This document shows, one piece after another, positions 2,866 through 35,895 of a stretch of DNA of 43,939 bases. Position numbers and translations under genes: made by a program. Source of the stretch: a virus; the IMG/VR virus record IMGVR_UViG_3300027822_000021, positions 1-43,939 of that record. The stretch is one strand, 5' to 3'. Below the pieces are notes generated by a model, which was not told the DNA's origin, made no database searches, and saw only the letters and a program-made list of their open reading frames with translations. The first letter of the stretch is position 1. Every line of letters starts with the position of its first letter.

Positions 2866-3228
2866 ATGATTAGATTATTTGTGCAACTTGCCAGCAATGG
2901 CACAATGTATGTCCCAGCCCCTTGCCGAGGGACTGTTATGGGGGCGCAAGCGGTTTGGCAAACAGATGCTGTCGATGCTGCTGATACAATTATTCTCAGC
3001 CGAGGCACAACTGCAGTTAATACTATTACGGCAGTTGACGGGGACGGTTTGCAGACCGAAACCGGTGTACCGGATACAACCAATAAGGGTTTGATTTTTG
3101 ATCCTGATTCAAGCACAAAGGCCAACACCAACATTAAACTTGTGGCAAATGGTGCCGCCGGTATTTCTTTGGTGACTATTGAATTTGATGATTCGGCTTA
3201 TGTTAAGCAAACAGCAATAGAAGCATAA
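2866..3228 (+). CDS. Small beta-rich virion protein, possible decoration or head protein
   Basis: The 120-residue protein starts at ATG 2866 with GAGAGG upstream. It is composed almost wholly of beta-prone segments (MIRLFVQLAS, GTVMGAQAVW, TIILSRGTTAV) and small residues, with an acidic end. Composition and position resemble the preceding gene product and other small head proteins. The pair may be decoration proteins on the capsid surface. No family motif is recognised. Hairpins lie on both sides of the gene. Confidence 0.5.
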   Translation: MIRLFVQLASNGTMYVPAPCRGTVMGAQAVWQTDAVDAADTIILSRGTTAVNTITAVDGDGLQTETGVPDTTNKGLIFDPDSSTKANTNIKLVANGAAGISLVTIEFDDSAYVKQTAIEA

Positions 3229-3231
3229 TTA

Positions 3232-3265
3232 ACAATCCTTGTGGGCTACGGTTCGCAAGGATTGT
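3232..3265 (+). other. Intergenic hairpin upstream of the adaptor gene
   Basis: ACAATCCTTG (3232-3241) pairs with CAAGGATTGT (3256-3265), and the loop bases next to the stem can extend it with G-C and G-U pairs. It fills the gap after the stop at 3226-3228 and precedes AAGGAT and the ATG at 3283. A T7 run at 3273-3279 lies seven bases beyond the stem, so partial termination is possible. The GTG at 3241 lies in the stem, which argues against it as a start. Confidence 0.6.
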
Positions 3266-3282
3266 ATAAGGATTTTTTTCGT

Positions 3283-3987
3283 ATGACTTTTGCTGAGTTA
3301 CGATCAGAAATATTAAATATAATCATGTTAAAAGATCCTATATACTTGAATATGGTTCTCGATAACAGAATTAATGGTATTGTTTCAATGATTGCAGCCG
3401 GTATAAACATGCCAGATCGAAGTATCTCTCCTCCCCTCTCTGATTTATACTCTTTTGAGACTGTAGCGACCACAACTGAGGCTTATGCTTCTTTACCAGA
3501 TACTTACCAACGCAATGTGTTTTCTGTAATAGATTCAAGCTCTGACCAAATATTGCCGCCACATGGCGGGAATTATTATTCTTTCCAGTTGTTTTTAAGG
3601 AATGCGCTTAAAAAGGATTTGACCCAAATAGGAGAAATTCTAAACGTAGCTATAAAAGGCAGCCGTCTGTATTACCAGGGGATACCTGCTGCGGCTTCTG
3701 ATTTGACAGTACATTTTTATCGGAAACCAGTTGATATGTCGGATGATGCTGATACACCAGATGGGATACCTGAACATCTACAAAGCAGATTGATCCGGAA
3801 CTATGTCGCAAAAGATTTATTGGGTGAAGCCAAAGAAAAAACAGACCAAACAATTTCACAAATTTCATATCACGAAACAGAATTTTACAACGCCATGCAA
3901 GATTTGATAGACTATATAGGCACAGATTCAGAGCCTATATATTACGGAAGATCATACATTAATGAAGATTATGGAATTTGTGATTAA
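3283..3987 (+). CDS. Head-tail adaptor/connector-like protein
   Basis: I chose ATG 3283 because it follows AAGGAT at a normal distance. A longer reading from GTG 3241 would start in a hairpin and has no ribosome site. The product is about 234 residues, mostly helical in the N-terminal and C-terminal thirds with a beta-rich middle (LYYQGIPAAASDLTVHFYRKP). This layout, and the place after the capsid genes and before the DUF6682-like protein, fits an adaptor ring protein that joins portal to tail, like gp4 of P22 or gp11 of T7. The family assignment is by layout, not by a signature motif. Confidence 0.6.
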   Translation: MTFAELRSEILNIIMLKDPIYLNMVLDNRINGIVSMIAAGINMPDRSISPPLSDLYSFETVATTTEAYASLPDTYQRNVFSVIDSSSDQILPPHGGNYYSFQLFLRNALKKDLTQIGEILNVAIKGSRLYYQGIPAAASDLTVHFYRKPVDMSDDADTPDGIPEHLQSRLIRNYVAKDLLGEAKEKTDQTISQISYHETEFYNAMQDLIDYIGTDSEPIYYGRSYINEDYGICD

Positions 3988-3996
3988 GGAAGATTC

Positions 3997-4671
3997 ATGA
4001 GTACAATATATGTATCAACAATATTTAACAGGGTTGCCAGAGTCACAGGAGATCCTGCATTCGTGGAACCTACCAGGGCACAGTTGCTCGATTGGTTTAA
4101 TGAAGGTGAGAAAGTTTTGGTTAAGCGGAAGCCCGATGCTTACGTAAAAGCTGCCAATCAATTATTGGTAGAAGGAACTGAACAAACACTCGCTGCCGAT
4201 GGAATAATATTTATTGAACCTATTTGCAATATGGGGACAGATGGTTCTACTCCAGGGAGGGTTGTTTATAGTGTAGACCGAAGGACAATCAATAGATCGA
4301 CTCCTGATTGGCATTCAGCAACAGCTAATACACAGGTCAATGCAGTTATTTTTGACGAAAGAAATCCGAAAATTTTTTATACATCGCCTCCTCAACCAAC
4401 AGCGACTCAAGGGTATTTGAAATATGAATACTCTGCATTGCCTCCGGAAATAACTGTTATGGATGAAAACTATGATGTGGTCTTTACTGTCGGCGATGAA
4501 TATGCAGCCGAAATGCTGAATTATCTATTATTTAGGATTTACAGTGAAGACAAAGGCCAAATATCAGATGCCGTTGAGCGCGCTCAAATGTATTGGGCAT
4601 TGTTTACCGGAGATATTGTTGACAAAGAAGCCGTTGAAAACAGAGACAGCCCGAATGTTCCAAGGAGATAA
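3997..4671 (+). CDS. DUF6682-like phage adaptor protein
   Basis: The 224-residue protein shows the conserved run of the DUF6682 family. An N-terminal helix pair is followed by a Leu-x2-Trp-Phe-Asn-Glu-Gly segment and VLVKRKPDAYVKA, then EQTLAADGI, then a Met-Gly-x-Asp-Gly-x-Thr-Pro-Gly-Arg segment, VDRRTINRSTPDWHSA, and a FYTSPPQP turn. Members sit with head-tail connector genes of short-tailed phages and are thought to be tail-tube-like or adaptor components. ATG 3997 is 9 bases after the previous stop. The C-terminal helices around residues 165-205 resemble adaptor packing helices. The family recognition is from memory of the pattern. Confidence 0.65.
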   Translation: MSTIYVSTIFNRVARVTGDPAFVEPTRAQLLDWFNEGEKVLVKRKPDAYVKAANQLLVEGTEQTLAADGIIFIEPICNMGTDGSTPGRVVYSVDRRTINRSTPDWHSATANTQVNAVIFDERNPKIFYTSPPQPTATQGYLKYEYSALPPEITVMDENYDVVFTVGDEYAAEMLNYLLFRIYSEDKGQISDAVERAQMYWALFTGDIVDKEAVENRDSPNVPRR

Positions 4672-4674
4672 TGA

Positions 4675-5622
4675 ATGGGACAAATATTCCGAAATGACTT
4701 TAGTACCACACTTACCGCCACAATAACATCTTTAAGCACTGAGCTTGCGCTGGCCGCTGCGCCATCCCCTGCAATAACCCTAACCGAAAGCGATGATTTC
4801 TTTAAGTTTACAATTGTTGATGAAAATGGTAATCGTGAAATTGTCAAATGTGTTGGAATAACTGGAAATAATGTTACAATCGGCGTTACATTAGGAGTGC
4901 CATCTGTAGACGGCAGAGCGCAAGAAAACACCACAGCAAGAGCGATAACCCATACAGATGAACATATAATTAGTATGCGGACAACCGCAGGCTTATTTGA
5001 AACGATAATTGCCGCAATCGCTACGTTGCAAGCTAATACATCAATTGCGACAGTAACTATGGCCGAGGAGGGGACAGATGATGCTCATCCTTTGTCCCCT
5101 CTAAAAGGCCGCATTATGGTTGATGGGTATGCTCCGTTATCTACGTTGGTGCAAGCACAAGGCGGGACTAACAATGTATCAAGAATGAGTCCTCTACGTT
5201 CACGTCAAGCTGCGCAAGCTTTTTTTGGGACTATATTTGAATCCGGAACGACTTGTATATTTCCACAAAACACTGTTCCAACCGGCTGGATATTTGTAGC
5301 CGAGGGTAATGACCGAGTTTTTATCGGGACAAACAGCTATACGACTGGCGGTGATATGGGTGGAAGTTGGACATTAGCCGGGATTACAGTTGATGGTCAT
5401 GCGCTAAGTATAGAAGAAATGCCAATACATGAGCATGGTATAAACGTCAGAAACCATGATACGAACAGTCCGGGAACCGTCAGAAACGCCGATTGGGGCG
5501 GAGGGAATCAAGATACTGAGACGAAATCTGCCGGCGGTGGCCTTGAGCATACTCATGGGGTGACTTTAGGAAATACCTGGAGACCGGCTTATGTGAAAGC
5601 TATTACAGCACGGAGGGCTTAA
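4675..5622 (+). CDS. Tail fibre/collar-like protein with metal-binding His motif
   Basis: The 315-residue protein has an N-terminal beta-rich module (about 1-110), a middle helical linker that ends in SPLKGRIMVDGYAPLS, and a C-terminal tip domain (about 205-315). The tip contains GTTCIFPQNTVPTGW, GGSWTLAG, the motif HEHG near residue 260 and HTHG near residue 298. His-x-His pairs of this sort coordinate metal in the tips of phage receptor-binding fibres such as T4 gp37. ATG 4675 follows AAGGAG at 4662-4667. The protein is a clear paralogue of the first ~310 residues of the product of 5931-7670, pointing to an internal duplication. Confidence 0.65.
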   Translation: MGQIFRNDFSTTLTATITSLSTELALAAAPSPAITLTESDDFFKFTIVDENGNREIVKCVGITGNNVTIGVTLGVPSVDGRAQENTTARAITHTDEHIISMRTTAGLFETIIAAIATLQANTSIATVTMAEEGTDDAHPLSPLKGRIMVDGYAPLSTLVQAQGGTNNVSRMSPLRSRQAAQAFFGTIFESGTTCIFPQNTVPTGWIFVAEGNDRVFIGTNSYTTGGDMGGSWTLAGITVDGHALSIEEMPIHEHGINVRNHDTNSPGTVRNADWGGGNQDTETKSAGGGLEHTHGVTLGNTWRPAYVKAITARRA

Positions 5623-5925
5623 ATGAATTACGAAAACGCTTTTAATTGCAAGGATTGTCCACAGTGCAACACATCAAAAGGCTGCCCGGACTGGTTAGAA
5701 TTAATCGAAGAAGACGATAGTGGAAAAGTACGCATCAAGAAAATGTGTGGCAGAGTATATGAAAAGTATTTTTGGATCAATGTAACAAAAGCCCTTGCAA
5801 TATTAACTGAAAATGTGTCCAAAACAAACAATATCCATACTGACGGGATTTTAGCAATAGGGCATGCAATACAACAGCATCAAAATCAGCAGATACAGCA
5901 AAGTAACATAAAAATGGTTCAATAA
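5623..5925 (+). CDS. Small cysteine-rich protein between two fibre paralogues
   Basis: The 100-residue protein begins directly after the previous stop, with GGAGGG upstream. Its N-terminal part has FNCKDCPQC, KGCPDW and a further Cys in KMCGRVY, a likely metal-binding knuckle. The C-terminal half is helical and ends in a Gln/Asn-rich stretch. Similar small Cys-rich proteins with a GCPxW segment occur beside tail genes of other phages, but no function is established. Being wedged between two fibre paralogues, it may be a fibre assembly partner or small virion part. This is inference. Confidence 0.5.
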   Translation: MNYENAFNCKDCPQCNTSKGCPDWLELIEEDDSGKVRIKKMCGRVYEKYFWINVTKALAILTENVSKTNNIHTDGILAIGHAIQQHQNQQIQQSNIKMVQ

Positions 5926-5930
5926 AATAG

Positions 5931-7670
5931 ATGCTTAAAGTAAGAAACAATTATAAAACAAAGCTGACAAAAAGCATTACAGCATCAGCTACAGAATTGC
6001 AGATTGATAGGGCGCCATCCCCTATCATGACGCTTTCAAACAGTGATGACCATTTCTTATTAGTGTTAACTAATGAGGAAACCGGTGACTATGAAGTAAT
6101 CAAATGTGTAGGCATAATAGGCCGGATTATTACCGTTGGTATAACTCTGAATACTCCGAATATAAACGGGCGTGGATACGATAATACGACTGCGCTCGTA
6201 ATTGACAAAGATGCAGATCATACCTTGCGTATGGTTGTAACCTCAAGTGCGCTTGATGAGTTTTTAGATAATTTAACGGCTATTGATGCATCATTTACTA
6301 TTGCTTCTACGGCTGAGGCTGAAGCCGGAGAAAACGATGAGCATGTTTTATCATCTTTGAAGGGTGTTGAAATGTTTGAGGCTTATGCTCCGTTAGCATC
6401 CCAGATCCAAGCCGAAACCGGGACTGACAATATTACCCGAATGACACCTTTACGAGAAAAACAAGGTCTGGATTATTATTTTGAAGAAAATCTACCATTC
6501 GGTACGTTAATGTTTTTCAGGCAAAATGTTGTCCCAACAAATTGGGTGTTTGATTCTGCCCACAGCGACAGATTGATACTGAATACATCAACACAGAGTG
6601 AAGGCGGAGAAACCGGTGGAAGCTGGACGTTTTCAGGCATAAGCGTCAACGGCCATGCAGTAACGCTTACGGAGTTCCCAATACATAAACATGGTATCAA
6701 CGTCAGAAATCATGAGTCGAATAACCCTGGTACGATTAGAAATGCCGATTGGGGTGGAACAAACCAGGATACTGAAACAAAGCCCGCAGGCGGTGGACTT
6801 GAGCATTCACATGGCATCACGTCAGAGGATACTTGGAGACCGGCTTACACAAAGCTTATTTCTTGTAGTTATGCGGAAAGGGTCACAACAGATACGGTTT
6901 TACTTATTCAAAGCGATACGACAAACGGTAGCCAGGTTTTTGTTGATCATGGAGTCCATGCACATGAACTTAACTATACAAGTGTTACTTATGATGGTTT
7001 GATACATCCAAGGCATACAGATCAGTTTTTTTATTACTTAGATAGCACTACGCCGATGATAGCTCCAACTACTCCAAAATTTGGTAAAACTTCGTTTGCT
7101 TTAAGCCGGAGTTCAAGTGCTGAAAGAGGTTCAAAACTAATAATATCAGATAATTTAGAAGATTTCGACATCATTAGAGGTTCCTTCACAATAGATTTCT
7201 GGATTATTTTTGAAAGTGTAAATGAAGATACTTTTTATCCTATAGCAGCTATGTGGGATGAGGCAGGAATCAAAAACTGGTATCTTATGGTTCGCTTAAA
7301 CAATGCTACGTCTGGTTATTTTAATTTTTGTGCATATGATACTCCAAATGCACAAAATGCTTATTCAAAACAAACATCTTTTTGGGAAAGCGGAGATAAG
7401 TGGACTCATGTTGCGATAACTTGTGACGGGTCTATTCTATATTTTTTTATTGATGGTGTTTTAACAGACAGCCATGATATTTCAACATTAATACCTACGT
7501 CAACTGTTGTGTCTGATTTACACATAGGAGGGTGGGAAGATCACCCTCCAGTTCCTTGGTGGTATGCTGCCGAGCGAACCCCATTTTATTTTGATGAATT
7601 TAGGATCAGGAAAGGCACAGCCGTATGGACAACAGATTTTACGCCTCCAACAGCACCTGTTTCTCCATAA
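5931..7670 (+). CDS. Tail fibre/collar paralogue with C-terminal LamG-like lectin domain
   Basis: The 579-residue product repeats the architecture of the 4675-5622 product over its first ~310 residues: the same N-terminal beta module, the SSLKG...YAPLAS linker and a tip region with HKHG and HSHG. It then adds a new C-terminal domain (about 365-575). That domain has a FTIDFWI strand, DKWTHVAITCDG, LYFFIDGVL and DEFRIRKGTAVWTTDF, a typical LamG/concanavalin-like jelly roll. Such domains bind carbohydrates. The gene looks like a duplicated fibre that gained a lectin head. The ribosome site before ATG 5931 is weak, so translation may be coupled to the previous gene. Confidence 0.7.
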   Translation: MLKVRNNYKTKLTKSITASATELQIDRAPSPIMTLSNSDDHFLLVLTNEETGDYEVIKCVGIIGRIITVGITLNTPNINGRGYDNTTALVIDKDADHTLRMVVTSSALDEFLDNLTAIDASFTIASTAEAEAGENDEHVLSSLKGVEMFEAYAPLASQIQAETGTDNITRMTPLREKQGLDYYFEENLPFGTLMFFRQNVVPTNWVFDSAHSDRLILNTSTQSEGGETGGSWTFSGISVNGHAVTLTEFPIHKHGINVRNHESNNPGTIRNADWGGTNQDTETKPAGGGLEHSHGITSEDTWRPAYTKLISCSYAERVTTDTVLLIQSDTTNGSQVFVDHGVHAHELNYTSVTYDGLIHPRHTDQFFYYLDSTTPMIAPTTPKFGKTSFALSRSSSAERGSKLIISDNLEDFDIIRGSFTIDFWIIFESVNEDTFYPIAAMWDEAGIKNWYLMVRLNNATSGYFNFCAYDTPNAQNAYSKQTSFWESGDKWTHVAITCDGSILYFFIDGVLTDSHDISTLIPTSTVVSDLHIGGWEDHPPVPWWYAAERTPFYFDEFRIRKGTAVWTTDFTPPTAPVSP

Positions 7671-7687
7671 ATAGTTAGAGGAGTCGC

Positions 7688-9640
7688 ATGAAAATAAAAA
7701 TATCAGAATTCGGTGGCATGGCTCCAGGAACTGCCGGGCATCTTTTACCGGCCAATGGGGCGCAGGACGCTGAAAACATAAACTTCGACAAAGGCGATCT
7801 TAGAGCATGGAAGTTGCCTTTATTGACGACATCAATAATCAGCACGTATGACGCAACGGCTCAATATCTATCTGCTGATGCAAAGAGAGTTGTTTATTCT
7901 GGACGGCTTTACTATTGCACAACCGACACGCCTAATCCTTCCGGAGCATGGGACAATACAAGATGGACATTAATTCCCATACAAAGCTTGTTTCGATTTG
8001 AAGAAAACTCAAATTCTCACTGGATTATTTCAGATAAAACACGAGATTACGTCAGGTCATTGGAGCCTTCGGATGAATATGAGCGTGTATATGTTTCAGG
8101 CGAAAATGAATTGTGGACGTATTGCAATGATCTTGTTTCATCTCCGTTTGACCCTTGGGGCGATTATTACAAATTAGGAGTGCCAGCACCTACAGCACCA
8201 TGCGTTGTTGATACATATACAAATGGTGGGTCTGATTATATTGCCTGGTATTATACCTATGTAAATAAATATGGAGAGGAAGGCTCTCCAAGCGATACAG
8301 TTGAAGTCACTGATTACCTCTCTGGAAACATAACCCTTGATACTTTCACGGAACCGCCTACAGGTAGGGCATTAGAAGGTGGTCAGATCCGTTTGTACCG
8401 CACAAATTCATCAACTGCCGGCATAGCAGAGTTTCAAAAAGTAAAAGATACGAATATTAATGGTTTTACATTTGCGACTGATTCTATAACGGATGATGTC
8501 GCAGCAGATGATCTGGGTAGTGTTTGCCCTTCCGAAAATTGGGGCGTACCTCCTGATGACCTTCAGGGCTTGGCTCTTTTTTCATCTAATATAATGATTG
8601 CGTTTAAGGACAATATCCTTTACATGAGCGCACCAGGATTCCCGCATGCATGGCCTACCGAAAACCAATATTCGATTGCATCAACCATTAGAGGTATAAA
8701 GGTTTATGGCGCAATAATCTATGTCGTAACAGATGATCTGTATTATTTTTTCTACGGTGATGATCCTGAAAATATGAGTAAGGACAATTCTGAAACGATG
8801 TATCCTTGTTCAGCCAAGGCCAGTATGGCAACGTGTAACGCAGGCGTGTTGTTTGCAGGGAATGAAGGGTTGATGCTTCTAAACGCAAGTGGTTGTGTCA
8901 ATATAACCCAAAACAGTGTTTATGGGATCCAGGACTGGATTGATATGAATCCAAGCACCATGAATGGAACCTTTTACAATGGGAAGTATTTCTTTTTTTA
9001 TACAGACACAGACGGTTTGAGACATGGGGCGTTACTTGACATGGGGAGCGGAAACAAGCTGACCAAGCTGTCATTGTTTGCTTATGCTGGATATCCCAAC
9101 TATGGAGACGGTGAATTCTATATGGTGTTAACCGGAAACAACCGATATGCTGCCGATGCAACGATGTATATTAAGCAGTGGAATGCGGATCCGTATAATT
9201 ATTTGCGGCGGTTTTGGAAGTCTAAAAAACACTTATTGCCAAACGAGATGATCTTTCCTGTAGGACGTGTTTTTATAGATAGAGAGTATCATCAAAACGT
9301 TTTAGACACTGCCGAGGATGAAAATTATATTAAAGATTTAAATGCTCCCATTTTCGCTGCCGGCAATGTTTTTGGTGAAATAAACAGCGATAACATTACT
9401 ATTTTTGAAATAAATGGGGACAACTTGTATTCTCCATCTTCAATCCAGATAAACGCCAATGCTGATTTAGAAGTATACATAGATTGTAAACTTGTTCACT
9501 CTCAACCTATATTGAATAATAATATTTTTAGAATATCGAAGAGTCTAAAAGGAAGTGAATTGGAAACAGTAATATCCGGATATGTCCCTGCCTACACAAT
9601 AGAGCTTGCAGGTTCAGCACAGGAGATGATAACATCATAA
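7688..9640 (+). CDS. Tail nozzle/stabilisation-like protein (P22 gp10-like role)
   Basis: The 650-residue protein starts MKIKISEFGGMAPGTAGHLLP and carries repeated beta segments such as LFRFEENSNSHWI, IAWYYTYVNKYGEEGSPS, GGQIRLYRTNS and VLFAGNEGLMLLNASG. The order of short beta modules with Trp/Tyr and Gly turns is the pattern of large beta-propeller tail-hub or nozzle proteins of short-tailed phages, which close the tail tube below the adaptors. Position after the fibres and before the internal virion genes agrees. ATG 7688 follows GAGGAG. A specific family match would need a profile search; a tail tubular B-type protein is the main alternative. Confidence 0.65.
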   Translation: MKIKISEFGGMAPGTAGHLLPANGAQDAENINFDKGDLRAWKLPLLTTSIISTYDATAQYLSADAKRVVYSGRLYYCTTDTPNPSGAWDNTRWTLIPIQSLFRFEENSNSHWIISDKTRDYVRSLEPSDEYERVYVSGENELWTYCNDLVSSPFDPWGDYYKLGVPAPTAPCVVDTYTNGGSDYIAWYYTYVNKYGEEGSPSDTVEVTDYLSGNITLDTFTEPPTGRALEGGQIRLYRTNSSTAGIAEFQKVKDTNINGFTFATDSITDDVAADDLGSVCPSENWGVPPDDLQGLALFSSNIMIAFKDNILYMSAPGFPHAWPTENQYSIASTIRGIKVYGAIIYVVTDDLYYFFYGDDPENMSKDNSETMYPCSAKASMATCNAGVLFAGNEGLMLLNASGCVNITQNSVYGIQDWIDMNPSTMNGTFYNGKYFFFYTDTDGLRHGALLDMGSGNKLTKLSLFAYAGYPNYGDGEFYMVLTGNNRYAADATMYIKQWNADPYNYLRRFWKSKKHLLPNEMIFPVGRVFIDREYHQNVLDTAEDENYIKDLNAPIFAAGNVFGEINSDNITIFEINGDNLYSPSSIQINANADLEVYIDCKLVHSQPILNNNIFRISKSLKGSELETVISGYVPAYTIELAGSAQEMITS

Positions 9641-9669
9641 TTATGACTAACAAAAGGGGGTAGTGAATT

Positions 9670-9822
9670 ATGGAACATCTTAAAGAATTCCCAGTTGCCA
9701 CTCAAAACGATGCTTTAAAGGGAACATATTCATCTAAGAGCATCTCAACAATAAAAGTAAATAAAATTAAATATTTAAAACTATTCAGAAAGGCTATTCA
9801 TGGTTCCCCAAAAAACACTTGA
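9670..9822 (+). CDS. Small hypothetical protein (50 residues)
   Basis: ATG 9670 follows AGGGGG (9655-9660). The frame runs to TGA at 9820-9822 and encodes a basic peptide starting MEHLKEFPVATQ and ending HGSPKNT. It overlaps the next small frame by 23 bases, which suggests translational coupling. There is no recognised domain. It is supported mainly by its ribosome site and its fit between tail genes. Confidence 0.4.
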   Translation: MEHLKEFPVATQNDALKGTYSSKSISTIKVNKIKYLKLFRKAIHGSPKNT

Positions 9823-9988
9823 AGAGTATACAACAATTTTATTAGCAGAAAACAGTCGAGTTCCAGAGGGGTTTCATATAGTAGAAACACCTATTCGCCA
9901 TTCTCATGAAATTCCTTTAGATAAGAATGGCAACTTCCGATACAGATGGGGCGCAGGTTGTGATCCACAAAAAAAAAAGCTTTTTTAA
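9800..9988 (+). CDS. Small hypothetical protein (62 residues)
   Basis: ATG 9800 follows AGAAAGG at a good distance, within the end of the preceding small gene. The product is polar, with HIVETPIRHSHEIPLDKNG, and ends at an A10 run (9969-9978) followed by TTTTTTAAAAAA tracts. The run could allow slippage, but neither other frame extends more than about 20 codons, so a useful frameshift product is not evident. No family is recognised. Confidence 0.45.
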   Translation: MVPQKTLEEYTTILLAENSRVPEGFHIVETPIRHSHEIPLDKNGNFRYRWGAGCDPQKKKLF

Positions 9989-10024
9989 AAAATCTTTTTT
10001 TAATTTTTTTGGAGCGTAGTTGCT

Positions 10025-10168
10025 ATGACAATGCCTAAAATTAAAGAGCCGACCATGGCGGCAGATAACGTTGATATAAGAAAGATCTATGATATATTAA
10101 GGAGCATCAAGAGGGCAGTAGAATGGCTGGATGCGGAAGTAAAAAGAGTGGAATTGTTGATTCCATAA
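10025..10168 (+). CDS. Small hypothetical helical protein (47 residues)
   Basis: ATG 10025 follows GGAG at 10010-10013 and the frame ends with TAA at 10166-10168. The peptide starts MTMPKIKEPTM and is helical and amphipathic in its second half (IYDILRSIKRAVEWLDAEV). It overlaps the next gene by 46 bases. Short helical proteins of this type are common in the tail-to-internal-protein interval of short-tailed phages. No function can be assigned. Confidence 0.4.
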   Translation: MTMPKIKEPTMAADNVDIRKIYDILRSIKRAVEWLDAEVKRVELLIP

Positions 10169-10689
10169 AGATTGTTCCATATCTTAAAAAAGATGGTGTT
10201 CCTACATTTTTAGATTCTGAAATATTTTTTTTGTGGGAAAAGGCAGTATCAGAAAAAGCTATGGATTATATGTTTCTTGATAGAAAAACCGTTTCTCCAC
10301 AGTTTTTCTTAGAATACATCCAAGGGTTTGATATTAATTTTTTCGTTGTGTTTGCAGATAAAGAAATGGTTGCCTTTATTTTAATGACGAACATTTTATA
10401 CGGAAAAGCAGAATTGCATTTTTTTTCATATAACAATTGCCAAAGAGAAAAAGCTCTTGAAGTGAGTAGGTACTGTTTGAAATATTTGATCAACATCAAA
10501 TTAACAGAAAGTACATATTTATATGATGTTATTATAGGGATAACACCAGTAAAGAATGTGTTTGCCTGCATACTTTCAAAAAAGGCTGGAATGAAAGTAG
10601 TTGGTAGAATACCTAAGTATCTGTATAATATTAAAACAAAACAACAAGAAGATGTAATGTATCAATATTACAGTAGAGGTTTATTATGA
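10123..10689 (+). CDS. GNAT-type acetyltransferase-like protein in the virion cluster
   Basis: The 188-residue protein has the secondary-structure pattern of a GNAT fold: a beta-strand FFVVFADKEMVAFILM, a helix ALEVSRYCLKYLI, then IIGITPVKNVFACILSKKAGMKVVGRIP, which matches the late GNAT pattern of Asn, helix and (A/G)GF-like turn. Phages of several short-tailed groups carry a GNAT-like gene of this size among their tail and internal-protein genes. The classical acetyl-CoA loop Q/R-x2-G-x-G/A is not clear, so activity is uncertain. It overlaps the next gene by 4 bases (ATGA). Confidence 0.55.
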   Translation: MAGCGSKKSGIVDSIKIVPYLKKDGVPTFLDSEIFFLWEKAVSEKAMDYMFLDRKTVSPQFFLEYIQGFDINFFVVFADKEMVAFILMTNILYGKAELHFFSYNNCQREKALEVSRYCLKYLINIKLTESTYLYDVIIGITPVKNVFACILSKKAGMKVVGRIPKYLYNIKTKQQEDVMYQYYSRGLL

Positions 10690-11477
10690 GTGGAGGCTTC
10701 GGTGCATCAAAAACAGGTAGCAGCAGATCAAAACAATATGCTATGGATCCAGAAGCCATTAAGCGCATGGAGACGGCAGAACGGTGGCTTAATGAAATGC
10801 GGGATAAAGAATATGCTTATGGCGATGAGTTCTTTAGACCGTATGAGCGTGAGATGGTAGCGTCCAACAGTAGGCTGCTACCTCAAAATGAAAGTCTTAT
10901 GAGTGAACGTCTGGGCCAAGGCATTACAGATATTCGAGAAAGCGCACCTATTCGCCAAGAATTACGTACACAGCAGATGGAAGGTCTAAAATTATCCAGG
11001 CCCGCTATGATTAATTTCTTTGAGCAAGCAATTAATGGGATTGATGTTGGCAAGCGTAAAGGTGAAGCAGTTGCAGACGTTGAACACGCATTTAGCAAAA
11101 TGTTGCCACAGTTTGAACAAAATCTTTCCCGTAGAGGATTGACAGCAAAAAGCAGTGATTTTAGAAAAATAGGAATTGATAAGGCTAGAACAAAAGCAGG
11201 AGCGTCTAATTTTGCTGGTACACAAGCAGAGGCAGAGAAATTTGGTCGGTTAGGGCAAGCATTAAATACAAGGCAACTATTCACGCAGCCTTCTCTAGAC
11301 AATACTGCATACGCTCAAGGTGAATTACAGACAGGTGGATATTCTTTGGCTAATCCAGCAGATAGAGCATTGAATGCCGCAGGGTTAGGTGTGCAAGCTA
11401 ATGCCGCAGGTATGACACCATTGACAAGGAGTGTAAAGGACGCAGGATATAGTTGGAGTACTTCAGGGGGTAGATAA
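10686..11477 (+). CDS. Internal virion (ejection) protein, small
   Basis: This 263-residue protein begins MSGGFGASKTGSSRSKQYA. It has a helical middle (about 25-190) with many charged residues and a low-complexity C-terminal part rich in Ala, Gly, Asn and Gln. Size, composition and position as first of a three-gene set ending in a giant protein resemble internal virion proteins ejected through short tails (gp14 of T7 and gp7 of P22 as functional parallels). It starts in a 4-base overlap with the GNAT gene. The assignment is from context and composition. Confidence 0.6.
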   Translation: MSGGFGASKTGSSRSKQYAMDPEAIKRMETAERWLNEMRDKEYAYGDEFFRPYEREMVASNSRLLPQNESLMSERLGQGITDIRESAPIRQELRTQQMEGLKLSRPAMINFFEQAINGIDVGKRKGEAVADVEHAFSKMLPQFEQNLSRRGLTAKSSDFRKIGIDKARTKAGASNFAGTQAEAEKFGRLGQALNTRQLFTQPSLDNTAYAQGELQTGGYSLANPADRALNAAGLGVQANAAGMTPLTRSVKDAGYSWSTSGGR

Positions 11478-11479
11478 TT

Positions 11480-11698
11480 ATGGCTTTTTGGGCTTTTTTA
11501 GGTGGCGCGTTGAGCAGTAAGGCAGGTGGCATGGCTGTTAGCCAAGTTGCTAAGGGATTATCGAATAAAGGTGGAGATAGCGGTATGCTCGCGCAGCAAG
11601 GGCAGCAAATGCCGCAAGAACAACCTATGCAGGATAATACAATTGTAAGGAACAAAGTAACCCTCCCGGTGAATAGAGGGTTAGGGGGTAGGCGATAA
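11480..11698 (+). CDS. Small protein with hydrophobic N-terminus, internal virion cluster
   Basis: The 72-residue product starts MAFWAFLGGALSSKAGGMA, a glycine-rich hydrophobic segment, followed by a Gln-rich stretch and a basic end. It is packed tightly: it starts 2 bases after the previous stop, and its TAA shares a base with the ATG of the next gene. The hydrophobic Gly/Ala segment could insert in a membrane, as expected of an ejection-apparatus part. Function is not known. Confidence 0.5.
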   Translation: MAFWAFLGGALSSKAGGMAVSQVAKGLSNKGGDSGMLAQQGQQMPQEQPMQDNTIVRNKVTLPVNRGLGGRR

Positions 11699-13359
11699 TG
11701 CCATTAGGGTTAAAACAGAAACCATGGACTGGCGGTGCTGAACGCTTTCAAGATATGATGGAAAGCGATAGAGTGCAAGACAAGATCGGTCTTACCCGCA
11801 AGGCACAGAATAAAGATGCGCCAATCGCTTGGGGTATTGCATACGATAAACCAAAAGCTCCAGTAAATGAATACGGCCTAAAAGAATCTGTTTATTCAGC
11901 TAAAAAAAAAGTTTTAGAAGCGACAGAAGAGAACAGCCCTGAATACAATATTGCTGAACAAATTGTTGATTCCATGGCCAGTAATTTCTTAGGCGTGCGA
12001 CCGTATAAATATGGTATGACACAACATGAAAAAGATATCCAGAAACAAAGAGAGGGTGTAAATCTTGAATTACAAAAAGCTCATAAGGCACTTATGCCAG
12101 CATTGCGAGCAGCGGCTAATGTTGAGTCTGAAAATTATGCAGACTTAGAAGAATTTGCCAAGCACATGAACAGGAATCAACCAATTTTTGGAGCGATCAC
12201 AAATATAAAAAGAAGTGATGAAGTCGAACCAAAGTTTAACCCTAATACCGGTAAGGAAAGTGATTTTGCCGGTGTTCCTCTTTACTCTTTTTCCTACACA
12301 GACCCAAACACTGGCAAGACAGACCAATTTGAAAAGATGTCACTGCCAGAATTGGTTGAAACATACAGGGACAATCTTCCTGAAAGCGATGCTATGCAGT
12401 TGACAAGACTTGCCGCAAGGGGTCAAGTAGAGGACGATTTAAAAAGAGATTTCGCAGCGACGGGAATTACAAGTATTACACCAGTAGGTACAGAAAAAGG
12501 AACTGGTCGTAAAATGTACAGGTTTAAGACAAAAGGCGGAGAAGTTTATCACGGTCCAGGCATGAAAAACGAAAATGGTGAGATGATCATAGTCCCGTCC
12601 GAAAATATTGAATTTACCGCGGATAATACAAAAGCTATATCACCATACCAAAAAGCTACTCTTGGAATAAAAAAGTTGGAGCTTGGGCTTAAACAAGATG
12701 CGGCAAGAAAAAAAGGCACTATTACCACACCTAAGGAAAAAGTTGATTACGATAAAATGATGTATGAGCTTACCATGCAGAATCTCCCATTAGGCAGTGA
12801 AATAACACAGGAAGCCATTTGGAAAACCATAATGATGAGTAATGGTGGAGAAAAAGTGGTTAAAGGCAAACCCGGGACTCCGCAGGCTGGAAAATCTTTT
12901 ATACAAAAAGGTGGAGAGCTATATGACAGGTATATGAATCCAGTGGCTACGAGAGAAGCGAAAGCAAGTACTAAACCAAATGTAGAGTTGAGGCAGCCGA
13001 AAAAGAGAGACTCCGGGTCCGCGAAATTATTAAGCAATATCAAAACAGGATTAACGAGATCAAAAAAGAAAAAAGAACCTAAACCAGATACCAGAAGTTT
13101 TGGAGAAAAAACTCAAGATACCTTGCTTAAACGCAAAAAAGATGGCAGTATATCCTTAGTGGATACAGATGATTTTAAGAAAGTTGGAAAGGCTATCTAT
13201 GATACAGTAGAAAAAACAGGCGACACTATAGGTGTTGCAATAAGCAAGTTTTTAAAGGCAAATAATATAGTTGGTACTGCTATAGTTAACGGCATTAAAA
13301 AAGCTGTAAAGGCCGCTGCTGAATCACAAAAACAAGCAAAAAAAGAATCAGGATTTTAA
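11698..13359 (+). CDS. Internal virion (ejection) protein, mid-size
   Basis: The 553-residue protein is mostly helical and charged, with a proline-containing N-terminus, a beta-containing middle (about 160-300), a Lys-rich low-complexity stretch around 420-470, and a C-terminal amphipathic Lys/Ala/Val helix (about 490-553). Its place between a small hydrophobic protein and a giant multidomain protein fits an internal core/ejection protein of a short-tailed phage (gp15 of T7 and gp20 of P22 as role parallels). No enzyme motif was found. The start overlaps the previous stop by one base. Confidence 0.6.
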   Translation: MPLGLKQKPWTGGAERFQDMMESDRVQDKIGLTRKAQNKDAPIAWGIAYDKPKAPVNEYGLKESVYSAKKKVLEATEENSPEYNIAEQIVDSMASNFLGVRPYKYGMTQHEKDIQKQREGVNLELQKAHKALMPALRAAANVESENYADLEEFAKHMNRNQPIFGAITNIKRSDEVEPKFNPNTGKESDFAGVPLYSFSYTDPNTGKTDQFEKMSLPELVETYRDNLPESDAMQLTRLAARGQVEDDLKRDFAATGITSITPVGTEKGTGRKMYRFKTKGGEVYHGPGMKNENGEMIIVPSENIEFTADNTKAISPYQKATLGIKKLELGLKQDAARKKGTITTPKEKVDYDKMMYELTMQNLPLGSEITQEAIWKTIMMSNGGEKVVKGKPGTPQAGKSFIQKGGELYDRYMNPVATREAKASTKPNVELRQPKKRDSGSAKLLSNIKTGLTRSKKKKEPKPDTRSFGEKTQDTLLKRKKDGSISLVDTDDFKKVGKAIYDTVEKTGDTIGVAISKFLKANNIVGTAIVNGIKKAVKAAAESQKQAKKESGF

Positions 13360-24302: not shown

Positions 24303-26258
24303 ATGGCAAAATTTGGATCATATTATAATGCAGCAATAGTTCCAGCTAACAATGATGTTGTGTTAATTGGCGATGCATCCAATACGAATAAAGTTGAGGG
24401 TGTCCATGCAGAAGATTTGCCTATAGGGACTGCCGCTCAATCAGCATTGGATGGGAAAATTACAGTCAGCACAAAAGTAAAACGTGTAGGAGATGCAGAA
24501 ACTATTCAATCTGTTATTGATACTATCCCGGTTATGCAAGGCAGTTTAGTATCAGGTATAACAAATCCTTATATCGTTAACGTACCACCAGGGCATGAAA
24601 AGGAATATTATTCGCTTGTACAAGATGTTTCCGATAATGCAAGTGATAAGCGTAACATAAAGATTGTTTTTGAGAATAATCCGGATAATAAATTTATTGT
24701 AGATCAGTGGGACGCTTTAGATGAGATAGGTGATTGGACACTATACACAGGTGATACTCTAACTATAGATACAAGTAATAAGTTTGAAGGTGGCGGTTGT
24801 CTTAAAATTACCGGATCAGGTTTTATTCGCTGTACCAAAAATGGGAATTTTGATTTTAGTGCATATCAAGGAATGCTTATAGATATACAAATGGATATAA
24901 GCCAGATGAATTATATGGCCTTATATTTATATACAAATACAGCATTTATCGGAAGGTCTTGTGGGACAATAACCGGAACTGGAACGATTAATCGGACATT
25001 CTTTTTCCCTTTCGTTCAAACATCAACAGATATCTTGGATTATTCAAACATAACACGAGTTCGCATAGGTTTAGATAAGACTGGTTATCCAGGTGTGCAT
25101 GAAGGGTACATTGACAATATTCGGTTGGTTCGGACAACTCCTCATAGAACTGCCGTTTTACGATATGATGATGGTTATGCAAGTGACTTTTCAGTCGGGA
25201 CAAAGCGATTAGATGAGTATGGGTGGAAAGGCAACTTTGGAATAATAGCTTCTCATGTTGATTTTGACGCAGGGAAAATAGCATTATCCGAATGCAAAAA
25301 AATGGATAGCAGTGGGCATATATTATGTAATCATACATATGCACATCCAAGTTTCGCGTCTGACGGGTTTACAGAACAAGAAACATATCAAGACTATGTA
25401 TTAGGAGCTAATTTTTTGAGAATGAATGGTTTTGTATTAGGGGAACAACTTTTTGTTAATCCATATTCAGAATCAAATGCCTTTCTTGATAATTTTTTAG
25501 ATAAGGATGGTGTTGTCAGCACTTATGCAAAGCATGGGGTTATGCCTGCTATGGAATTTAGCGGAAATGAAACGCCTAGCGCTATTATAGAGGCTTTTAT
25601 TACACAGAAACAGGGCGGTATTATACAATTTATATTTCATAATCCAGGGACTGATGAGACTGCGTATCAAACAATGCTCGCATGGATCAATACTCGTTTT
25701 TCGGAGGTAATTACCTTTCCTGAAATTTTAAACAGAATGCCTGTAGAAATGCATTCAAAAAAGCATGAAAATATTAGCCATACAGAGATTGGTTTTAAAA
25801 AAACATTATCAGAAGATCTTGATATGCGAAATTATTTTGGGAAAGATTACTTCCTTGATCCTGGTGGAGCTAATAGGGATATTACTCCGACCGGAAAGTT
25901 TAAACCTTTTTCTGAAAAAAGAATTATCAACACAGCCGATGCCGCAGAAACGCTAACTTTTGACCCACTTTTTACATCTTCAGGAACAGCGGATAATACA
26001 AGCGATCTTTTGACTTTTTCAACTGGGGCATGGGTGACTAATCAATTAGTCGGTAGGACAATTAATAACACAACTGATGGCAGCTCAGGGGTCATACTTG
26101 AAAATGACGATACCACTATCACAGCAGTTCTATTCGGAGGAACAAATAATACATGGACAACAACAGATGCTTTTACGATAACACCAGTTGGCAGTAATCA
26201 AGATATCACGCAAGGGAGTATAGGCCTTTTTATCTACGATGGTGAAGGATGGCATTAA
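24303..26258 (+). CDS. Tailspike with polysaccharide deacetylase (NodB/CE4) domain
   Basis: The 651-residue protein opens with a ~50-residue attachment module (FGSYYNAA...ASNTNKVEG) shared with the 26677-28203 product. A beta-rich region near 130-275 resembles a carbohydrate-binding jelly roll. The enzyme part then shows NodB motif 1 as RYDDG (Asp289, Asp290) and motif 2 as HTYAHP (His344, His348), the metal ligands of carbohydrate esterase family 4. Further segments near 350-470 complete the barrel, and the C-terminal 150 residues are beta-rich and repetitive. It would remove acetyl groups from capsule, O-antigen or other surface glycans during adsorption. Confidence 0.8.
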   Translation: MAKFGSYYNAAIVPANNDVVLIGDASNTNKVEGVHAEDLPIGTAAQSALDGKITVSTKVKRVGDAETIQSVIDTIPVMQGSLVSGITNPYIVNVPPGHEKEYYSLVQDVSDNASDKRNIKIVFENNPDNKFIVDQWDALDEIGDWTLYTGDTLTIDTSNKFEGGGCLKITGSGFIRCTKNGNFDFSAYQGMLIDIQMDISQMNYMALYLYTNTAFIGRSCGTITGTGTINRTFFFPFVQTSTDILDYSNITRVRIGLDKTGYPGVHEGYIDNIRLVRTTPHRTAVLRYDDGYASDFSVGTKRLDEYGWKGNFGIIASHVDFDAGKIALSECKKMDSSGHILCNHTYAHPSFASDGFTEQETYQDYVLGANFLRMNGFVLGEQLFVNPYSESNAFLDNFLDKDGVVSTYAKHGVMPAMEFSGNETPSAIIEAFITQKQGGIIQFIFHNPGTDETAYQTMLAWINTRFSEVITFPEILNRMPVEMHSKKHENISHTEIGFKKTLSEDLDMRNYFGKDYFLDPGGANRDITPTGKFKPFSEKRIINTADAAETLTFDPLFTSSGTADNTSDLLTFSTGAWVTNQLVGRTINNTTDGSSGVILENDDTTITAVLFGGTNNTWTTTDAFTITPVGSNQDITQGSIGLFIYDGEGWH

Positions 26259-26274: not shown

Positions 26275-26667
26275 GTGAAGTCAACCTTGATACGAGAAGA
26301 ACTTAAACCATTCTTTTCTTTCTGGAAACCGGCGAATATTATTATAACGGATCTTGAATATAATGATATCTCTGCTGACGAATTACGGGAAGAGATTATT
26401 AGTATTCCAGCAGATGGAGATTGCGATGATTACGCAAGGGAGCTATGGTGTTACCTCCGGCATAGGCATCCTCAATGGCCGATTGGTATGTGTTTGTTGA
26501 GTAAGGTTGCCGGCATAAAAACGAACCATTCTATGATAATAGGTTCTTGCACAGATGGTATTTATCTTATTGAACCGCAAGCCGTTTTTGATATTGGATT
26601 AGCCGGTCTGCAACGGATGTGGAAAGCTCATCCTACAGAAGATCGGTTTTATTTTACTTATATTTGA
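26275..26667 (+). CDS. Papain/transglutaminase-like small phage protein
   Basis: GTG 26275 follows a strong GGAGGAGG (26260-26268), and no ATG fits. The 130-residue protein has DGDCDDYA with Cys50, then NHSMIIG with His85 and LIEPQ with Glu100. The order Cys, His, acidic/Gln is that of papain-like or transglutaminase-like folds in a known group of short phage proteins (DCDDxA...H...EPQ). It could be a peptidase, amidase or inactive relative. It sits between the deacetylase spike and the lipoprotein-type fibre, so it may act on surface material or in fibre maturation. Confidence 0.55.
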   Translation: MKSTLIREELKPFFSFWKPANIIITDLEYNDISADELREEIISIPADGDCDDYARELWCYLRHRHPQWPIGMCLLSKVAGIKTNHSMIIGSCTDGIYLIEPQAVFDIGLAGLQRMWKAHPTEDRFYFTYI

Positions 26668-26676
26668 GAGGTATTC

Positions 26677-28203
26677 ATGAAAAAGTTTATGGTTTTATTT
26701 TTGGCAATCGGTCTGCTTTCCGGGTGTGCAGGTATGAAAAGAGCAGAGCAAGCTAAAGCACAATTCGGAACGTACTACAACGCAGCGATAACTCCGGCTG
26801 CTAATGATATCCTTCTGATTGCTGATGCGTCCAACACAAATAAGGTTGAGGGTATTCATGCAGAAGATTTGCCTATAGGGACTGCTACCCAGACGGCATT
26901 GGATGGGAAAGTCGGTGATACTGGCGATGAGACAATAGCGGGTGTTAAGACTTTTAGCTCCTTCCCTGTCAGCCCGTCATCTGCTCCTACAACTGATTAT
27001 CAGATGGCAAACAAAAAGTATGTTGATGATAATGGTGGCACAGGTGGGGATCAATTGGTTGATATTGTTACAACCACTCCTCTACTAATAAATGGTGGGG
27101 CTAATTTAGACGATGCTCTCCCTGGTGCTGATGGTGATATTACTTTTAGCTTGCCAGCCGCAACAAAAAGCACAGCCGGGCATATGACTGCGTTACAAGC
27201 GGCTCTATTAGAGGACGGATTAATAACGAACTTTAATGGTACAGCGTATAGAGTTTTTTATGTTAACGCCGGTGGTGATGTCACAGAGGTAGCATTAGGA
27301 GCTGACGGGACATATCTTCGGTCCAATGGGTCTGCTGCTGCACCTACGTTTACCACTCCATCTGGCGCAGGCGATATCCTTTCAGTCTTGGACGATACAA
27401 CAGGAGATGTACCTGAATTAATTCAGATAGCAACAGCATTTTCCGCTAATGACTCTACACCAGATGTTTCTGGGCACAGCTTTTTTATTACCGCAAATAC
27501 TTCGGCAACAACTATCACTAATTTTGATAACCCTGCTAACGGCAAGGTCTTTTGGTTGTTGGTTAACGATGAATATACCACTTTTGACTTTACTTCTTCC
27601 GGTCTGGTAGGAATCTCAGATGATTATCTTGCTCTAAACGGTGAATTAGTTTGTTTTTACTATTCTTCTGTAACTTCAAATTGGCATTTTTTAGGTTTTC
27701 CAAAAAACTTCAGTCTTAATATTGGGGGTTTTGCTGCGAATAGAGCAATCTATTCTGATGATGATGGGGTTCTTGAAGTTTCTGATGTCACTCAAGCTGA
27801 ACTTGAATTGTTAGATGGAGCATTAAACGTTCAATCTAAATCCATGGCTGTGGCAGACCTTGCAGATACTTCTACTCCTTCTGTTCTAACGGCAGCAGAA
27901 ACAGCGGATACCAAGATATCGAACTATAAATCAACAGGGGCAGATCATGTTTTTACAATGCCAGCACCGCATGTCTCAGGAGGTGTAATCTTCACAATTG
28001 GAGACGAGTTTCAAGTTGATATTGAACCGAATACGGATGATCTATTTTATCTGAATGGAACTGCAATGGCAGCAAACGAACATATACAAAACACAGCAGA
28101 TACTTTAGGGCAAAGAATAGTCGGATATTGTATGAATATAAACGGTACTTTGCGGTGGATGTTTTATTCTTCTGATACTGCATGGGTAGAGGAGACACCA
28201 TAA
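26677..28203 (+). CDS. Fibre-like protein with a lipoprotein signal peptide
   Basis: The 508-residue product starts MKKFMVLFLAIGLLSGCAG: Lys-Lys, a hydrophobic core and a perfect lipobox L14-S15-G16-C17, with Ala at +2 after Cys. Right after it, residues 30-78 match the attachment module of the deacetylase spike (FGTYYNAA, ASNTNKVEG, EDLPIGT). The rest is fibre-like: TIAGVKTFSS, MANKKYVDD and beta-rich repeats to the end. A fibre would normally stay in the cytoplasm for assembly, so an export and lipidation signal is odd. An internal ATG (26734, Met20) could give a signal-less form. The gene follows GAGAGG and is coupled to the next gene. Confidence 0.75.
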   Translation: MKKFMVLFLAIGLLSGCAGMKRAEQAKAQFGTYYNAAITPAANDILLIADASNTNKVEGIHAEDLPIGTATQTALDGKVGDTGDETIAGVKTFSSFPVSPSSAPTTDYQMANKKYVDDNGGTGGDQLVDIVTTTPLLINGGANLDDALPGADGDITFSLPAATKSTAGHMTALQAALLEDGLITNFNGTAYRVFYVNAGGDVTEVALGADGTYLRSNGSAAAPTFTTPSGAGDILSVLDDTTGDVPELIQIATAFSANDSTPDVSGHSFFITANTSATTITNFDNPANGKVFWLLVNDEYTTFDFTSSGLVGISDDYLALNGELVCFYYSSVTSNWHFLGFPKNFSLNIGGFAANRAIYSDDDGVLEVSDVTQAELELLDGALNVQSKSMAVADLADTSTPSVLTAAETADTKISNYKSTGADHVFTMPAPHVSGGVIFTIGDEFQVDIEPNTDDLFYLNGTAMAANEHIQNTADTLGQRIVGYCMNINGTLRWMFYSSDTAWVEETP

Positions 28204-28910
28204 TGAAAAAAATAATGTTTCTTTTGCTGTTGCTCTTTCTTCCTTCTGTATGTTTTTCTGGGGCGGCTCTTATGGGTGAGGAAAGCTTAACATATAGTTC
28301 TGTAGATTTCGCATGTTACTTTGAAGGCACTTGGTCAGACCCAACGTACACCATGGATGAAATACTGGATGTTGACGATGGCGATACCACTGGTACAAAA
28401 GAGAGTTCATCTACAATATCAACAACGCAAGCTTATTCAGGAACCCACTCATTATATATTCCATCTAATAATGATAGCCTGAATTTTGATTTCACAGATC
28501 GGCCATCAGAGTTTACAATTGATTTGTATGTATATCTTCCAGCTATTTCAGCAAACAATCAATTCTTTGAAATATATGTTAATGATCAGAACAGATATAG
28601 AGGGCATATTCAATCAGATGGAGCTGTAGGAGTCGAGTACGTAGCTAACGGTACATGGGTTACATTCATAACAACAGCAACAGTTTCAGCAGCAATATGG
28701 ACGCATATTGAAATAACAAATTCAGTTGCAAATGATAATCTTGGCGTTAGAATAGCTGATGGTTCTTGGGAAGATTACAGTGGAGCCAATACTGTTGGTT
28801 CTTTTTCGGTAGACCCTACTACTATAGGAATAGGCTCAAACTCTTTGAGCGTAGCTAATGGACTGTATATAGATGACTTTAAATATAAAAAGTCTTATGA
28901 GGTGCATTGA
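28203..28910 (+). CDS. Secreted LamG/jelly-roll lectin-like protein
   Basis: I chose ATG 28203, which overlaps the previous stop by one base and has GAGGAG upstream. An earlier in-frame ATG at 28182 would spoil the signal. The 235-residue product starts MKKIMFLLLLLFLPSVCFSG, a classical type I signal peptide, without a proper lipobox because Val precedes the Cys. The remainder is one jelly-roll domain: FACYFEGTW, THSLYIPS, FTIDLYVYLPA, WTHIEITNS and IDDFKYKK. It resembles the lectin end of the 5931-7670 product. It is probably exported to the periplasm or surface. Together with the preceding lipoprotein-type fibre it forms an exported pair. Confidence 0.7.
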   Translation: MKKIMFLLLLLFLPSVCFSGAALMGEESLTYSSVDFACYFEGTWSDPTYTMDEILDVDDGDTTGTKESSSTISTTQAYSGTHSLYIPSNNDSLNFDFTDRPSEFTIDLYVYLPAISANNQFFEIYVNDQNRYRGHIQSDGAVGVEYVANGTWVTFITTATVSAAIWTHIEITNSVANDNLGVRIADGSWEDYSGANTVGSFSVDPTTIGIGSNSLSVANGLYIDDFKYKKSYEVH

Positions 28911-28931: not shown

Positions 28932-29132
28932 TTGAAAAAAATATATAATCTATCACGAAACATAACAAGCAAGGCCGAATTTATTGAATATGAAATTAGT
29001 GGATATAATCCAGGGACGAGCAGAACACCGTTATCCGTACCAGACATTAAGAAAAAATATGTTTGTCTGAGTGGGATGATTGATGGTATGCTTGATAAAC
29101 TTGATGAAAGGAAAAAAGATGAAACATTTTAA
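28932..29132 (+). CDS. Small hypothetical protein, possible frameshifted start
   Basis: Read as given, the only start is TTG 28932 with a poor ribosome site, giving a basic helical protein of 66 residues (KKIYNLSRNITSKAEFIEYE...). An ATG at 28910, overlapping the previous TGA, opens a 12-codon frame (MKKTEQTIEKNI) with GAGG upstream, ending at 28948. Removing one A from the A7 run at 28935-28941 joins the two frames into a 73-residue protein. This points to an indel in assembly, a recent mutation, or slippage. The end overlaps the next gene start. Confidence 0.45.
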   Translation: MKKIYNLSRNITSKAEFIEYEISGYNPGTSRTPLSVPDIKKKYVCLSGMIDGMLDKLDERKKDETF

Positions 29133-29511
29133 AGAATCAGAGTTTGAATGTCCATGTGGTTGCGGTTTAAATTTTAAGGATATGGACAAAGACCTTATAA
29201 AAAAGCTTATCATCGCCAGACGACATGCCGGGACACCGTTTTTTATAACATCGTCTATCCGATGTAAAAACCATAACAAAAAGGTAGGTGGCAGCCCGAT
29301 GTCAAGCCATTTGGCAGGTCTTGCGGTAGATATTACCTGCGATTGCTCCAAGAAAAGATTTAGAATTGTTAAAGGTTTAATCCTTGCAGGGTTTACAAGA
29401 ATTGAAATAGCAAAAAGGCATATACATGCTGATGCTGACGAAAAAAAGGCGAAACGTGTGCTTTGGGTACAATATGGTGATGTTGGGGGAAAAAGCGTGG
29501 GTAAAAAATGA
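29119..29511 (+). CDS. Endolysin, M15-family peptidase
   Basis: ATG 29119 follows AAAGGA; an upstream in-frame ATG at 29080 lacks a ribosome site. The 130-residue product starts MKHFKESEFECPCGCG, a common start of phage M15_3 peptidases. It has the zinc motif SSHLAGLAVDI (His64, Asp71) and a late HIHAD with His103. These enzymes cleave D-Ala or L-Ala-D-Glu links in peptidoglycan stem peptides. It is followed immediately by a holin-like gene. No signal peptide is present, so release through the holin is expected. Confidence 0.8.
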   Translation: MKHFKESEFECPCGCGLNFKDMDKDLIKKLIIARRHAGTPFFITSSIRCKNHNKKVGGSPMSSHLAGLAVDITCDCSKKRFRIVKGLILAGFTRIEIAKRHIHADADEKKAKRVLWVQYGDVGGKSVGKK

Positions 29512-35226: not shown

Positions 35227-35895
35227 ATGGAACAAACAAAAGATGGATATGATAGTAAGATAAATGAATATTACTATCTCAGCAATGGCGAATACGTGTT
35301 TCTGAATGACTATGCTGTAACACATGATGGCAGAAAAGTATTCCTTGTAACGCCTATATTTGAAGGCGAGGCAATTGAAATTAGTGGAGATGGTGATTCT
35401 CATCGTGAAATATTAATGACCTATAAGCATAAAGGCGAAGAGAGATTAGTAGGGGATATTTTTAAAAACCCTCCCTTAGAGAAACTTTCCGAGATTTATA
35501 GAAAAAAACTTTTGCAAATTGAGGGCTTATCACTTACCTTAAGTTTACTAATGGTTGAGGAACAAGCTTTATTAACAAAACATAAAAAAATAAAAGCTGC
35601 CATAGAACGTGATAGGTTATCCCTTAATTCTATGGACAAGGAAACGACAACAGCGAATGAAGAGTTAAAAGATTTGAGTGACAAGGTAAAAGATATGCGG
35701 GCAAATCTTAGTACTTTAGAGGATTCAACGGCGTTATTCACTAATCTTTCAGATTCTGTTTTAATTTCTAAAGAAGAAATTACAAGCCTAAACAAAGATT
35801 CTTTCAAGTTACAATGCCTTGAAGCTGGTGGTGTTGATAATTGGAGTTGGTATTCAGAATCATTAACAGATTTTTTTGAAAGATACCCAAAATAA
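35227..35895 (+). CDS. Hypothetical protein with beta N-terminus and long coiled coil
   Basis: The 222-residue product starts after AAGGAGAA, 13 bases beyond the XRE gene. Residues 1-75 are beta-rich (EYYYLSNGEYVFLNDYAV, KVFLVTPIFEGEAIEIS). Residues 85-185 are a long coiled coil (KLSEIYRKKLLQIEG, ELKDLSDKVKDMRANLSTL). It ends in VDNWSWYSESLTDFFERYP, reminiscent of an interaction tail. No family is recognised. Its place before a DUF1351-like gene and an MBL gene suggests DNA metabolism. Confidence 0.5.
   Translation: MEQTKDGYDSKINEYYYLSNGEYVFLNDYAVTHDGRKVFLVTPIFEGEAIEISGDGDSHREILMTYKHKGEERLVGDIFKNPPLEKLSEIYRKKLLQIEGLSLTLSLLMVEEQALLTKHKKIKAAIERDRLSLNSMDKETTTANEELKDLSDKVKDMRANLSTLEDSTALFTNLSDSVLISKEEITSLNKDSFKLQCLEAGGVDNWSWYSESLTDFFERYPK

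Follow-up and report, generated by a model that had tools for sequence, protein, structure and literature searches.

A fibre-type protein with a lipoprotein signal and its signal-bearing partner: a candidate exported adhesin pair among the late genes of tailed phages

In the T4 gp37/gp38-like arrangement of tailed phages, a tail fibre is combined with a tip adhesin and, to our knowledge, the known fibres of these phages are cytoplasmic. The T5 lipoprotein Llp excludes superinfection; phage lipoproteins of this sort are considered to keep virions from adsorbing to the fragments left by lysis, and the Llp gene adjoins that of the receptor-binding protein (PMC9586334). A phage gp38 that inhibits adsorption is explicitly described as being without a signal peptide (PMC12946066), and exported adhesin-like target proteins have been reported for cellular DGRs (PMC8144416). 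A search confined to an open-access library yielded no report of signal peptides on the fibres of tailed phages.

The window analysed here is an entire IMG/VR virus record (43,939 nucleotides). Its gene A (26677..28203, plus strand) resembles Llp, and Cor of T1-like phages, in being phage-encoded and in carrying a lipoprotein signal with its lipobox (called by rule, not by SignalP) and a predicted lipid anchor. Unlike A, Llp is small and periplasmic (61 residues in the structure paper) and is not derived from a fibre; the product of A is not a mature protein of some tens of residues: it has 508 of them, a fibre shaft and a partner adhesin, encoded by gene B. The A-B pair is like gp37/gp38 in its fibre repeats, its connector-like domain and its late position, and in its overlapping neighbour gene, B, which encodes a variable glycan-binding or tail-protein-like partner. 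It departs from gp37/gp38-like fibres, and from the absence of export signals expected of virion tail fibres, by the Sec signals present on both A and B in eight of the ten members of the family. The outcome that we propose for the pair would be that of Llp, namely a blocked receptor and a spared progeny (PMC9586334).

Gene A is a full-length ORF whose start, ATG 26677, follows the Shine-Dalgarno sequence GAGAGG. Its N-terminus reads MKKFMVLFLAIGLLSG and then CAG, with the lipobox LSGC at residues 14-17 and Ala at +2, corresponding to a lipoprotein signal peptide of residues 1-16 and a predicted lipidated Cys17 (26677..26727, plus strand); beyond the cleavage site, MKKFMVLFLAIGLLSG is continued by CAGMKRAEQAKAQ, upstream of the module FGTYYNAA...ALDGKV. 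The sequence-only reading had described this signal, and its coordinates, frame and sequence are all correct. It had also suggested that an internal ATG at 26734 could give a second, signal-less form, one gene serving two jobs. This start was rejected as the origin of such a form: it has no Shine-Dalgarno sequence at the normal working distance (the anti-SD duplex reaches -4.0 kcal/mol there versus -7.1 at ATG 26677), and no matching Met comes right after the signal in those N-termini of relatives that are visible. A lipobox in the neighbourhood of lysis genes, the first of which downstream of A-B encodes an endolysin (phrog_894, 29119..29511, plus strand), could also designate a spanin or another envelope lysis lipoprotein. 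Such a function is barely credible for a β-rich fibre of 508 aa without any transmembrane segment past residue 40 (best 19-mer mean hydropathy 0.94): a u-spanin needs such a segment at its C-terminus, and the lack of one contradicts the spanin reading.

As the sequence-only reading had recognised, the signal of A is followed by the same module of about 50 residues that opens the deacetylase protein, then by fibre-type repeats. This generic fibre module (26764..26913, plus strand; residues 30-79) shares about 77% identity with residues 4-53 (24312-24461) of the deacetylase protein (24303..26258, plus strand), a probable virion spike that has no signal peptide. The variable shaft (26914..27825, plus strand) contains the repeats TIAGVKTFSSFP...ANKKYVDD and NGTAYRVFY...LGADGTYLRSNG, which are common to L001. 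The fibre-type character of A is further indicated by PHROG, in which parts of the protein match tail-fibre and virion structural families, and by a weak BppL_N match; no PDB sequence matched either gene A or the profile of its C-terminal domain. The module was considered as a virion anchor, a reading not supported by its distribution, as it is N-terminal in some fibre proteins (L011-L014) and lies in the middle of others (L002, L009). Pfam revealed no known N-terminal virion-anchor domain in the A protein of the window. The signal-less A of L017 begins with an Mtd_N-like region where the signal would be, its match falling just below the Mtd_N cut-off. Between the deacetylase gene and A, the window encodes a 130-aa protein (26275-26667) that has the motifs DGDCDDYA and NHSMI and may be a cysteine peptidase of the transglutaminase-like kind; Pfam gave no match for it.

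The C-terminal domain of A (residues 384-508; 27826..28200, plus strand) is the conserved part of the protein, the corresponding sequences in nine other loci being 61-79% identical to that of the window. When its AlphaFold model (mean pLDDT 71.7) was compared with known structures by VIA-align, the nine best rows were all phage virion proteins, with Z values of 5.0-7.0: the Pa223 spike, KP1-variant baseplate proteins, T4 gp10 and gp9, CBA120 TSP4 and an Acinetobacter tailspike, gp9, gp10 and TSP4 scoring 5.6-6.3. StcE and CpaA (6o38) came next in the list; non-phage matches at Z < 5 were set aside, with the exception of these two, as both are members of the XD1 group already described. Indeed, the described relatives of the TSP4 XD1 domain are gp9, gp10, StcE and CpaA, and XD1 itself may act as a spacer (PMC8825819). 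The coincidence of our matches with that list makes the XD1 assignment more credible than the Z values alone, and is the reason why we read the C-domain, whose model is similar, at a Z of 5-7, to the gp9/gp10/TSP4 XD1 connector fold, as a probable connector for which the conserved N-terminal motif of B would be the likely docking peptide. The predicted fold would be that of CBA120 TSP4 and gp9-gp10 XD1; unlike in those proteins, the domain of A is C-terminal and stands within a protein that mostly carries an export signal.

When viral contigs were scanned with the complete A protein, the matches fell chiefly in its last 125 residues, and the C-domain used as query identified the nine other loci, L001-L005 and L016-L018 on viral contigs and L019 on a Nitrospirae MAG contig. 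Two more exact-pattern scans added no C-domain relatives, so that the family remains at ten distinct members, and among 396 Nitrospirota genomes the sole match was the genome holding L019. The scanned proteins of these loci include those of terminase, portal, tape-measure, ejection and integrase genes; the loci therefore belong to tailed phages, some of them temperate. In seven loci, the nucleotide identity is 0.66 in the C-domain and 0.46 in the B signal region, and falls to 0.26 in the shafts and 0.27 in the B bodies, an unrelated control giving 0.245. A signal peptide is present on the A proteins of the window, L001, L002, L003, L005, L016, L018 and L019, and is missing from those of L004 and L017; the homologues thus do not consistently lack the first 20 residues. 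The lipobox occurs in the window and in L016, as LSGC followed by Ala in both, L016 being a second lipoprotein case joined to a different shaft, and the signals of L001, L002, L003, L005, L018 and L019 are of the SPI type. The start of the L018 protein was set by hand (MKNKKLAGFFLLLFGLVALLYA followed by AD); the automatic count is 7/10 because the picker took an internal GTG in that locus.

All signal calls were made with a hand-made rule and not with SignalP; this rule fires on 4.2% of all genes in the sampled viral loci and on 1.0% of internal Met pseudo-N-termini, the lipobox form on 0.04% of the latter. In a comparison set of 73 fibre ORFs, picked solely by the common motif ANKKYVDD[KN] and regardless of signals, five carry one (7%), and allowing any start codon within the first 50 codons revealed no extra signals. 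The excess among C-domain A proteins (8/10 versus 5/73; Fisher test, p about 1e-6) concerns proteins that are not fully independent, being related through the C-domain, yet the shafts that follow their signals are dissimilar.

Gene B (28203..28910, plus strand; 235 aa) has a signal peptide (MKKIMFLLLLLFLPSVCFS; 28203..28259, plus strand), an element absent from the sequence-only reading and central to our interpretation, and a weak LamG-like body; the AlphaFold model of the protein (mean pLDDT 42) was left out of the analysis. Its start codon and the stop codon of A overlap (TAATG), and such an overlap is found in all ten loci, mostly as TAATG and otherwise as ATGA, GTGA, TTGA or GTG-start forms, the B gene of L016 being read in L026, at the opposite end of a record that looks circular. 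The export signal of B follows that of A: the eight exported A proteins have signal-bearing partners and the two signal-less ones do not (p 0.022), a co-variation that depends on the two signal-less loci, L004 and L017. Furthermore, the exported B proteins, with a deviation in L018, have in common a short motif directly after the predicted cleavage site (GAALMGEES in the window, 28260..28286, plus strand; consensus [DG]A[GA][FLI][MIS]G). A similar motif is found at or near the start of the signal-less B proteins of L004 and L017 (NVGLTGGLA, LLGLSGGVS), and of 743 background N-termini 0.7% and 0.9% score as high. Could the N-terminus of A be only signal-like, a hydrophobic start without export? 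The crudeness of the rule would allow it; the false-positive rates of 1.0% and 0.04%, the presence of the signal in 8/10 homologues and in their partners, and the position of the B signal exactly before the conserved motif make it very improbable. Of the sequence-only reading, the export of a fibre-type protein has therefore gained in weight from the eight homologues, the L016 lipoprotein and the A/B co-variation, and the double start has found no support.

The bodies of the B proteins are diverse: a weak LamG in the window, of which the L019 protein is a homologue, CBM_4_9 in L016, an RCC1 propeller in L017. As they vary between phages, one common target is not implied. In L005 (8366-9685), the body of the signal-bearing B is homologous to crAss-like phage tail proteins and to a signal-less protein of the Methanosarcina virus MetMV. 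In the crAss-like phage cr50_1, a gene with the annotation of a retron-type reverse transcriptase is found near the homologue. The signal-bearing adhesins recall the targets of bacterial DGRs, as does the resemblance of the L005 body to a crAss-like tail protein; unlike in DGR systems, we noticed no reverse transcriptase when reading the loci.

In the window, A and B belong to a plus-strand block that extends to about 30320 and comprises the genes of the major head protein, a fibre-like protein, an internal virion protein, the deacetylase protein, A, B and the endolysin. A 3071-aa ORF of the same genome (13363-22578) presumably encodes a multidomain internal virion protein, and the C-terminal part of a 222-aa protein (35227-35895) matches the T7 gp5.9 RecBCD-inhibitor family (PF25708, E 2e-16). 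The late position of the pair points to a function late in infection or near virion release. It is also typical of tail fibres, immediately before the lysis genes and, in L005, after the tail-tip genes, and one may suppose that A and B are virion fibres parked via Sec in the periplasm or envelope and joining the tails at lysis, the signal peptide merely determining where they mature. The module common to A and to the unsignalled deacetylase protein, the presence of the C-domain in the A proteins of L004 and L017, which appear to be of the virion type, and the homology of the L005 B body to annotated tail proteins are all compatible with this explanation. We regard it as unlikely, albeit a serious competitor: the lipid anchor of the window and L016 proteins would hold the fibre to a membrane and not to a free tail, and a recognisable virion-anchor domain is found solely in a signal-less member. 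Moreover, signals are absent from other fibre-like proteins that the window phage encodes (4675-5622, 5931-7670 and 24303-26258), and a virion function is therefore not required of A-B.

Extra signal-peptide genes, some of them β-helix-like, adjoin B in several loci. In L004, four such genes in a row (9244-12755) lie downstream of the signal-less A-B pair. In the Methanomicrobiales virus BK063671 (L020), to which an archaeal host is assigned, an unbroken run of five genes, each called as signal-bearing (3085-8728), includes one for a fibre-like and one for a β-helix-like protein. In L044, two signal-peptide proteins (4360-5439, minus strand), possibly exported, stand in an apparent capsid/head-tail block near a signal-bearing fibre gene. 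The multi-gene signal-peptide runs with β-helix proteins in several relatives and in BK063671, together with the temperate nature of some members (integrases in L002 and L016/L026), would suit a set of adhesins for lysogenic or infection conversion, altering the sticking of the host or its matrix processing, the B and C proteins (LamG, CBM, β-helix) being directed at outside glycans and not at the phage receptor. We consider this improbable to a similar degree as fibres destined for the virion: the genes lie inside the late structural block and not in a separately transcribed island, and no integrase was recognised among the scanned genes of the window. A promoter of its own, which would befit A as a moron-like gene, was rejected, the promoter-like sites around A being at chance (23 found versus 21.2 expected).

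The model we favour is that of an exported, envelope-acting A-B pair, which we judge likely from the sequences of the ten loci. The product of gene A would be a fibre-type adhesin exported via Sec, lipidated on Cys17 and retained in the host envelope. The partner adhesin encoded by B would be exported separately, and its short mature N-terminal motif would probably dock on the connector-like C-domain of A. Produced together with the late genes, the pair would bind a surface glycan or receptor of the host from the host's own envelope, thereby preventing the loss of further phages, and of the progeny once released, on that cell or on its debris, and would thus carry out the task of T5 Llp with fibre parts. 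Export and lipidation themselves, the binding of A to B and the masking of a receptor by the pair are steps that we infer. Receptor masking, with superinfection exclusion and progeny protection as its effects, appears to be the most plausible role of A-B; we assign it tentatively, at rather less than even odds, and it would need the fibre to stand on the correct face of the outer membrane. To the complete proposal, which combines the lipidated and exported A, the docked B, the late production and the masking from the host envelope, we attach a probability of about 0.42. A more doubtful extension is that, in a class of tailed phages, a virion adhesin unit, a fibre with its connector and tip adhesin, has been turned into an exported and sometimes lipid-anchored device of the host envelope; the Sec signal would replace the virion-anchor start on both genes together, and a viral system of receptor interference would arise from receptor-binding parts of the kind that the phage itself uses.

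Tail fibres are taken as components of the virion that the cytoplasm produces, and annotation pipelines label every gene of this type as a virion receptor-binding protein. Could a two-gene fibre/adhesin unit be routinely exported instead? If it is, some of the predicted receptor-binding proteins of uncultivated phages are envelope proteins, and host-range predictions built on exported fibre genes would be off. Superinfection exclusion would then have a fibre-based form, testable by the expression of the two genes.
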